From Candidatus Peribacteraceae bacterium (GTDB taxonomy: Bacteria; Patescibacteriota; Gracilibacteria; Peribacterales; Peribacteraceae): a stretch of DNA of 53,166 nucleotides. The notes beneath the pieces were generated by a model. It saw only the letters and a program-made list of their open reading frames with translations, had not been told where the DNA came from and made no database searches. The stretch lies in the NCBI GenBank assembly GCA_028707875.1, contig JAQWAC010000004.1:1-53166 (forward strand), in the 5' to 3' direction. Shown in pieces: positions 49,735-51,112 of this stretch (its first letter is position 1; the number at the start of each line of letters is the position of its first letter). Position numbers and translations under genes: made by a program.

Positions 49735-49764
49735 TTGACATGGCGACTCCCGCAGTCCTAGCAT
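49735..49764 (+). promoter_or_regulatory. Putative promoter of the asd leader region
   Basis: TTGACA-N18-TAGCAT; predicted start lies at or just before the first leader ATG (49773). Confidence 0.55.
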
Positions 49765-49772
49765 GGTTGCAT

Positions 49773-49829
49773 ATGACCCGTGCCCGCATCACCACCGTGA
49801 CCACCAAGCGCGCCCCCGAGGCGAGCTGA
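49773..49829 (+). CDS. Putative threonine leader peptide 1 (MTRARITTVTTKRAPEAS)
   Basis: Short ORF with ATC ACC ACC GTG ACC ACC, followed by conserved gctgaggtttgcgt and a terminator. Confidence 0.65.
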   Translation: MTRARITTVTTKRAPEAS

Positions 49830-49852
49830 GGTTTGCGTGTGTGATCAGTCCA

Positions 49853-49878
49853 AGCAACCCCGGCAGGTTGCTTTTTTT
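49853..49878 (+). terminator. Attenuator terminator 1
   Basis: agcaacc-ccggca-ggttgct followed by a T7 run. Confidence 0.85.
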
Positions 49879-49901
49879 GTATTCCTTTTCCCCCTCTTCC
49901 G

Positions 49902-49952
49902 ATGGACGAGACCCGCACCACCGCGACGAAGACAACCACGAAGCCGCCCTGA
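49902..49952 (+). CDS. Putative threonine leader peptide 2 (MDETRTTATKTTTKPP)
   Basis: 7 of 16 codons Thr (ACC/ACG/ACA), followed by gctgaggtttgcgt and a second terminator. Confidence 0.7.
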   Translation: MDETRTTATKTTTKPP

Positions 49953-49983
49953 AGCATGGCTGAGGTTTGCGTACGTGATTCAC

Positions 49984-50008
49984 ACAACCTCAGCCGGGGT
50001 TGTTTTTT
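49984..50008 (+). terminator. Attenuator terminator 2
   Basis: acaacc-tcagccgg-ggttgt followed by a T6 run; 8-nt alternative pairing ctgaggtt (49960-49967) / aacctcag (49986-49993). Confidence 0.85.
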
Positions 50009-50029
50009 ATTTCCCTTTCCCTTCTTCCC

Positions 50030-51112
50030 ATGAGATACCGTCCTTCTTCCCCGCCCGATGGCGGGCGCATCCCCGTCACGATCCTCGGTGCCACGGGCGC
50101 CGTGGGGCAGCGCTTCGTTGAGCGTTTGGCCCGCCATCCGTGGTTCCGCATCGCTTCGCTCTGCGCATCGAATCGCTCGGCGGGCAACACCTATCAACAA
50201 GCAACCGATTGGATTATGGATTCCCCGATTCCGCCGAATATCGCCGGAATGCAGGTGCGGGAATGCACGCCCGATGTGCCCGGCTCCATCGCATTCTCCG
50301 CGCTGGATTCATCGGTTGCGGGAGAGCTGGAAGAGACCTTTGCGGAAAACGGCTACGCCGTCGTCTCCAACGCCCGCAATCATCGCATGGATCCGGATGT
50401 GCCGCTGCTCATCCCGGAAGTGAACAGCGATCACCTGCGTATCATCCGTCAGCAACGTTACGAAGCCGGCTGCATCATCACGAATCCCAACTGTTCCACC
50501 GTGGGCATCGTGATGGCCCTCAAGCCTCTTTTGGATAAATTCGGCATCGAGCTCGTGGATGTCACGACGCTGCAAGCCGCATCGGGCGCGGGCAATCCCG
50601 GCGTCTCCAGCAACCGCCTGATCGATAACACCATCCCGACGATCGACGGCGAAACGGCCAAAATAGAAACGGAACCCCTGAAGCTGCTCGGAGAATTCCG
50701 TGACGGCGCCATCCATCCGGCGGACATGCGGATCAGCGCGCAGGTGAACCGCGTTCCCGTGCGCGACGGCCACACCGCCAACATCAAGCTCAAACTGCGC
50801 GCCCACGCGTCTCCGGAGGACGTCCGGCAGGCTCTGGAGGCCTACGAGAGCCCTCTGGCCTCTCTGAACCTCCCCTCGGCGCCCGGAAGGCCTCTGAGAA
50901 CGTCCAGAGACCCCTCATTCCCCCAGCCGTACTTCCACCGCAATGCGGGCGGCGGCATGGCCGTGAGTGTCGGACCCGTGACCCCCTGCAACGTGCTGGA
51001 TTATAAATTCGCCGTCCTCTCGCACAACACCGTCCGTGGAGCGGCCGGAGCGGCCATCCTCAATGCGGAGCTGCTCGTCAGGAGCAAGCTGCTCTCACTT
51101 CTCAGACAGTGA
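50030..51112 (+). CDS. asd: Aspartate-semialdehyde dehydrogenase, archaeal/fungal-type
   Basis: VTILGATGAVGQRFVERLARHPWF, IITNPNCSTVGIVMALKPLLDKFG, LQAASGAGNPGVSS. Confidence 0.92.
   Translation: MRYRPSSPPDGGRIPVTILGATGAVGQRFVERLARHPWFRIASLCASNRSAGNTYQQATDWIMDSPIPPNIAGMQVRECTPDVPGSIAFSALDSSVAGELEETFAENGYAVVSNARNHRMDPDVPLLIPEVNSDHLRIIRQQRYEAGCIITNPNCSTVGIVMALKPLLDKFGIELVDVTTLQAASGAGNPGVSSNRLIDNTIPTIDGETAKIETEPLKLLGEFRDGAIHPADMRISAQVNRVPVRDGHTANIKLKLRAHASPEDVRQALEAYESPLASLNLPSAPGRPLRTSRDPSFPQPYFHRNAGGGMAVSVGPVTPCNVLDYKFAVLSHNTVRGAAGAAILNAELLVRSKLLSLLRQ

Follow-up and report, generated by a model that had tools for sequence, protein, structure and literature searches.

Introduction

The E. coli thrL leader and the trp, his, and ilv leaders are ribosome-mediated attenuators of Proteobacteria, with thrL sensing both threonine and isoleucine. 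In other phyla, aspartate-family genes are under termination control by T-box and lysine riboswitches. According to a 2010 survey, Proteobacteria and Actinobacteria were, to its authors' knowledge, the only groups with leader-peptide systems demonstrated until then, and the survey added candidates from the Firmicutes (PMC2965389). Two described systems are closest to the one considered here. In Corynebacterium glutamicum ilvBNC the leader peptide is leaderless, transcription starting a single nucleotide away from its start codon (PMC11857589), and the Salmonella mgtCBR leader has tandem attenuators answering to ATP and to proline, which its authors call a “singular example” (PMC3641672). The Peribacteria, a symbiont-like lineage, are known from a description of one species to make few amino acids (PMC4736985). 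No report of attenuation or leader peptides in CPR bacteria was found in the open-access literature, which does not prove that there is none.

The asd Leader and Its Promoter

The window analyzed here is a 53,166-nt stretch from a Candidatus Peribacteraceae bacterium, contig C5 of a 1.32-Mb genome labeled G000. Two short ORFs and two terminators, with a promoter ahead of them, occupy the interval from the end of a permease gene (49622) to the start of asd (50030). These elements, asd, and the repeat after it are as follows:

49735..49764, + strand: sigma-70-like promoter TTGACA-N18-TAGCAT (TTGACA 49735-49740, TAGCAT 49759-49764)
49773..49829, + strand: leader peptide ORF 1, MTRARITTVTTKRAPEAS, probably leaderless; Thr 5/17, binomial p 2e-3
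49825..49838, + strand: module 1, segment 2 (5' strand of the antiterminator), GCTGAGGTTTGCGT; contains the ORF 1 stop codon
49852..49878 (hairpin 49852-49873), + strand: terminator 1, AAGCAACC-CCGGCA-GGTTGCTT plus T run
49902..49952, + strand: leader peptide ORF 2, MDETRTTATKTTTKPP; Thr 7/15, p 9e-6
49959..49972, + strand: module 2, segment 2 (5' strand of the antiterminator), GCTGAGGTTTGCGT; 49959-49967 pairs with 49986-49994
49984..50008 (hairpin 49984-50003), + strand: terminator 2, ACAACC-TCAGCCGG-GGTTGT plus T run; its 5' arm overlaps segment 3
50030..51112, + strand: asd, archaeal/eukaryotic-type aspartate-semialdehyde dehydrogenase, 360 aa
51124..51151, + strand: inverted repeat with T run 3' of asd, read by eye and unscored

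A sequence-only reading of this stretch had described the promoter and, behind it, two consecutive modules, each with a Thr-rich ORF, a copy of the same 14-nt repeat, and a hairpin followed by a T run; all of these elements are present. The promoter has 10/12 matches, where shuffled sequences are expected to give 0.1 such sites, and two intrinsic terminators with T runs precede asd vs. 0.4 expected in shuffles. The 14-nt GCTGAGGTTTGCGT occurs only twice in the 1.32-Mb genome, both times in the asd leader. The Lys codon of ORF 1, AAG, is at -22 from GAGG. The gene had been called an archaeal-type asd, and the protein indeed scores 405.6 bits against TIGR00978, above the curated cut-off of 301.2, and 437 bits against NF006416. 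It looks monocistronic, given the inverted repeat with T run on its 3' side and a next gene on the opposite strand.

An Rfam search at the locus gave no meaningful match, with no riboswitch, T-box, or lysine riboswitch, and the Thr_leader covariance model was absent among locus matches up to E 5. A search for CTGAGGTTTGC across the order was uninformative, since the reversed control turned up at about the same frequency; by eye, a third copy of CTGAGGTTTGC in G000 appears to lie within a coding region.

Proposed Mechanism

Ribosome-mediated (leader-peptide) transcription attenuation very probably controls asd, judging from the sequence. The computational evidence comprises the architecture of the leader and its conservation, the codon enrichment, the energetics of ribosome occlusion, and, for most modules, antiterminator and terminator pairings that exclude each other. 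Transcription would start at or a few nucleotides from the first AUG, and the leaderless ORF would be loaded with a ribosome. A shortage of charged tRNA-Thr, tRNA-Lys, or both would stall this ribosome on ACN/AAG codons 12-27 nt before GCTGAGG; the GCTGAGG segment, left free, could then pair with the oncoming 5' arm of the terminator, and polymerase would continue. With both tRNAs charged, the ribosome would reach the stop codon, which is within or 6-9 nt before the GCTGAGG segment, and would cover that segment, so that the terminator could form and transcription would end. Module 2 would repeat the decision of module 1, read-through into asd thus being the product of two decisions, and two modules in series may give a tighter off-state and a steeper response. 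Threonine plus lysine is the favored identity of the amino acids sensed.

Conservation among Relatives

Homologs of Asd were found at E 1e-10 in only 8/74 genomes of the order. The three closest, those of G000, G027, and G017, each have two tandem modules directly upstream; the G027 and G017 proteins are 66% and 61% identical to that of the window, and these genomes belong to two other genera, G027 being a member of the window's family. Their leader peptides are MVSTVPLTATTKRIP and MAHRQATKTTKHTP in G027, and MSATVTTTKTKTARKRG and MTTKTKTARKRG in G017, and the Thr codons are conserved. By eye, no such leader is present upstream of the other Asd homologs of the order (43-45% identical) or of the class.

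The six modules of these three genomes (W1 and W2 being modules 1 and 2 of the window, and P1, P2, Q1, and Q2 those of G027 and G017) were used to build a covariance model, R1, which recovers them at E 1e-16 to 1e-20. R1 also finds a seventh module in a fourth genome, G222 (E 3e-9; L241, about 3568, contig C3), in single copy, with leader peptide MTKARVTTKTAKRAHLQR and with antiterminator and terminator intact. It follows a tRNA-Thr(CGT) gene, recognized in G222 by sequence identity, as the leader in G027 also does. The next gene after it is not asd but a convergent one, surface-protein-like and with 49% identity to the downstream gene of the window. The arrangement suggests that asd and one module were lost and that the leader stayed.

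Sequence divergence among the modules is 21-45%. An origin by independent duplications, one per genome, was considered, but core identity is highest within a pair only in G017 (0.79) and is otherwise not decisive.

Antiterminator and Terminator Pairing

Each of the seven modules has a segment around GAGGTT, at or just past the leader stop codon and upstream of the terminator, whose sequence allows it to pair with the terminator's 5' arm. In an alignment of the seven, 95% of the antiterminator cells are standard pairs, vs. 30-45% in slid controls. Individual duplexes were compared with dinucleotide shuffles and are significant in W2, P1, P2, Q1, Q2, and the G222 module (z -2.9 to -5.0). The perfect complementarity noticed earlier in module 2, between CTGAGGTT and AACCTCAG, is exact and gives the strongest of these values (z -5.0, 0/500 shuffles). 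The pairing with one bulge suggested for module 1 is weak: the W1 duplex is no better than shuffles (z -0.15, 183/500).

Conservation of the antiterminator in related leaders, with compensatory changes, had been put forward as a check. The pairing is conserved, but changes on both sides of the helix are found at only one pair in the seven asd modules, which is not above chance (158/500 shuffles); the near-invariance of the helix leaves little covariation to see. In unrelated leaders built the same way the pairing persists with different sequences, and over 28 leaders the antiterminator duplexes beat shuffles with a mean z of -3.4. A MAFFT alignment of the aspartokinase leaders described below was also tried for covariation; it misaligned the terminator region, and the alignment-free shuffle test was used instead.

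Predicted Effect of Ribosome Position

The two alternative states were folded under an occlusion model in which the ribosome hides everything to 12 nt past the start of the A-site codon. The footprint is assumed, and the resulting figures are equilibrium calculations, real folding being co-transcriptional. In the seven modules, moving the modeled ribosome switches the terminator between a probability of 0.00-0.27, when it occupies Thr/Lys codons, and 0.89-0.99, when it has reached the stop codon. For terminator 1 the predicted values are 0.97 at the stop codon and 0.15 at the Lys codon; for terminator 2 they are 0.97 at the stop codon and 0.00 on Thr/Lys codons. Occlusion at Thr codons likewise disables the terminator in every module.

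The swing between states is 0.62-0.99, and it is equaled by at most 4/200 shuffles in five of the seven asd modules and in thrS (see below). Shuffles reach it more often for W1 (22/200) and Q1 (14/200); by these predictions, module 1 of the window is the weaker module. With no ribosome, module 2 is predicted to be non-terminating (P 0.03).

Probable Initiation without a Shine-Dalgarno Sequence

The sequence-only reading described the first leader as nearly leaderless, and neither ORF as having an obvious Shine-Dalgarno (SD) sequence; both points stand. No SD was seen before ORF 1 or ORF 2. The distance from the -10 element to the first ATG is 8 nt in the window, and this spacing is kept in the relatives (8, 7, and 8 nt in G027, G017, and G222), which implies leaderless or nearly leaderless translation. 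Across the leaders of the order, start codons are 7-11 nt past the -10.

The pattern TTGA-N19..21-TANNNT-N7..9-ATG occurs 22 times in G000, vs. 5 for its reverse, and by eye it is also found before apparent ribosomal protein genes. Among the long ORFs of the window, whose start codons are uncurated, SD-like motifs precede 4/39, as in the control (4/39). ORF 2 and asd both start after a pyrimidine-rich stretch without an SD; as the asd start is equally SD-less, the missing SD is no argument against translation of ORF 2.

Similar Leaders on Other Genes

A divergent aspartokinase-like gene, assigned (as are citramalate synthase and the partial thrS below) by best hits below curated cut-offs, is found in G000 and 17 other genomes of the order (E 1e-8; the weakest matches are partial). 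Most of those examined have a similar compact leader upstream, such as MQLVSSMKKTTKTSRSGKDGC in G000 or MQHVASMKKTTKKTSRTGKDGC in G222; the majority of these leaders have the antiterminator strand inside the ORF, where it again pairs with the terminator arm. Leaders of thrS have runs of Thr codons and a terminator, and Ile-rich leaders are found before citramalate-synthase-like genes:

L183 1891 (G000 contig C41), + strand: thrS leader, MSQLCTTSTTTTTFR
L240 12162 (G164), + strand: thrS leader, MHLLRTTTTTTTTPMRRS; gene recognized by eye
L126, L170 (G224, G111), minus strand: Ile-rich leaders MAQRAIISSIITPAQTA, MTSCQITSSIIITSTQKA before citramalate-synthase-like genes

The strongest sign that these ORFs act as translated leaders is that the amino acid matches the gene: Thr for thrS, and Ile for citramalate synthase. 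The complete design was defined as -35/-10 elements, an ATG 5-11 nt past the -10, a short ORF, a T-run hairpin, and a gene downstream. A scan of 0.8 Mb of loci from the order and class recognized 24 distinct leaders of this kind, vs. none in the reversed sequence; the loci had been chosen partly for such features, and the count shows how specific the design is rather than how common.

Further Ile- or Val-rich leaders precede small proteins at L130, L160, L151, and L152. These proteins have no family match (NCBIfam for L130, L160, and L151; Pfam for L130, L160, and L152). A Met-rich leader, MEFVQRTPAGSMMMHMMHTPLRGVRKT, with a terminator is found before a 345-aa protein (L137, + strand, 1464; G204) that has no NCBIfam match.

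In Anaerolineales/Chloroflexi, aspartate kinase genes at loci L019, L020, and L040 have upstream promoters, each leading into a near-leaderless ORF that contains a Thr run and then a strong terminator. Examples of the peptides are MTMTTTTSGTH and MTTTTSRLSV; the NCBIfam check covered the L019 protein. This may be the same control at work in a further phylum.

Amino Acids Probably Sensed

Relative to the long ORFs of the window (Thr 5.7%, Lys 4.7%), the asd leader peptides, which are not independent of one another, are enriched in both threonine (33% of residues, 5.8-fold, p 2e-17) and lysine (15%, 3.1-fold, p 1e-4). A joint threonine and lysine signal is most likely. The earlier proposal that threonine is sensed is partly supported, Thr codons being conserved, but threonine only is probably incomplete, given the invariant AAG.

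In the synthesis of threonine, aspartate semialdehyde is the substrate of homoserine dehydrogenase. This enzyme was found in 4/74 genomes, none of the matches being in G000, G017, or G027 (controls positive 14/14), and dapA was found only in G017 and G164 among 14 genomes searched. G000 is a genome in which the aspartokinase-like gene and asd were found, and homoserine dehydrogenase and dapA were not; G027 has asd and no match to the aspartokinase-like protein.

Sensing of threonine alone, with the invariant lysine codon a result of RNA pairing or descent, is a possibility to be held tentatively. Threonine is the dominant residue of the asd leaders, and the thrS leaders of G000 and G164, in the same order, are Thr runs. 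Lysine codons in the asd and tallied aspartokinase leaders are AAG in 63/63 cases and never AAA, compared to 56% AAG and 44% AAA in the long ORFs of the window, and this too could reflect a nucleotide constraint. Against threonine alone stands the fixed spacing between an AAG codon and segment 2: 7/7 modules have the codon 21-22 nt ahead of GAGG (for Q1 after a 6-nt shift of register by hand, the script having picked an earlier GAGG), with Thr immediately upstream in 6/7. The aspartokinase leaders, moreover, have 18% Lys and 16% Thr. Taken with this invariant AAG and these Lys-rich leaders, the failure to find homoserine dehydrogenase in the three genomes with tandem modules makes “threonine attenuator” too narrow a name.

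It is unlikely that lysine is the main signal and the Thr codons incidental. The invariance of AAG would fit, as would G017, where dapA (lysine/DAP branch) and aspartokinase are in one operon whose leader contains KTAKMTK. In the asd leaders, however, Thr residues outnumber Lys residues two to one, ribosomes modeled at Thr codons disable every terminator, and dapA was found in only 2/14 genomes. Both of these readings are alternatives inside ribosome-mediated attenuation, and their likelihoods are not exclusive of the one given above for attenuation itself.

Alternatives to Attenuation

Several results count against attenuation: the chance-level pairing of W1, the W1 and Q1 swings that shuffles match, the SD-less ORF 2, the predicted non-terminating state of module 2 without a ribosome, the single both-side pair change, and the two pathway genes not found in G000. 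The leaders could also be functionless remnants kept by recent common descent, a reading in line with a G222 leader that has no asd behind it, a decayed antiterminator in window module 1, and pathway partners that were not found. This is nonetheless improbable: at 21-45% divergence, pairing, frame, codon register, and tandem layout have all been kept in three genera. Control not coupled to translation, by a leader RNA that binds a metabolite or protein or by terminators accompanied by chance ORFs, would suit ORFs without an SD but is very improbable in view of the lack of an Rfam match, the Thr enrichment, the fixed codon-antiterminator spacing, the stop codons at segment 2, and the unrelated leaders on other genes with codons for the matching amino acid.

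Leader-peptide attenuation, by comparison, is well supported at the level of sequence by the recurrence of the design across the order, with start codons 7-11 nt past the -10. The original proposal of a tandem, near-leaderless attenuator in a CPR-like host is strongly supported by its conservation in three genera and by the similar leaders elsewhere.

Comparison with Known Systems

With moderate confidence, the wider picture is of an order-wide regulon of leaderless attenuators (aspartokinase, asd, thrS, and citramalate synthase) in the Peribacteria, reduced CPR bacteria thought to import most amino acids, including a tandem pair at asd that reads threonine and lysine charging. If true, leader-peptide attenuation extends to a bacterial branch for which it was undescribed, in the form of a natural two-stage attenuator. 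This class of control would then be present in CPR bacteria and on SD-less genes, and the two switches in series should have a measurable input-output curve. It also suggests that a symbiont-like lineage making few amino acids still regulates its remaining steps by tRNA charging.

The asd leader resembles thrL, trp, his, and ilv in its ORF of pathway codons, its mutually exclusive antiterminator and terminator, the stop codon near segment 2, and, for thrL, the sensing of two amino acids. It is unlike them in having two complete modules of ~130 nt in series, in lacking an SD, and in its near-leaderless first ORF, as well as in its CPR host, its combination of Thr and Lys codons, its single target asd, and the absence of an Rfam match. 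T-box and lysine riboswitches are set apart from it, neither kind giving a match in the asd leader region. C. glutamicum ilvBNC shares the leaderless ORF, the amino-acid codons, and the alternative hairpins, but is a single module in an actinobacterium, with a 292-nt leader and branched-chain amino acids as signals (PMC11857589). Salmonella mgtCBR likewise has two short ORFs in one leader, each in an attenuator; these respond to different signals, whereas the asd modules share codon type and segment 2 (PMC3641672). The principle is thus already known; what is new is the host lineage, the leaderless SD-free form, the tandem layout with the same signal, and the breadth of genes with such leaders.
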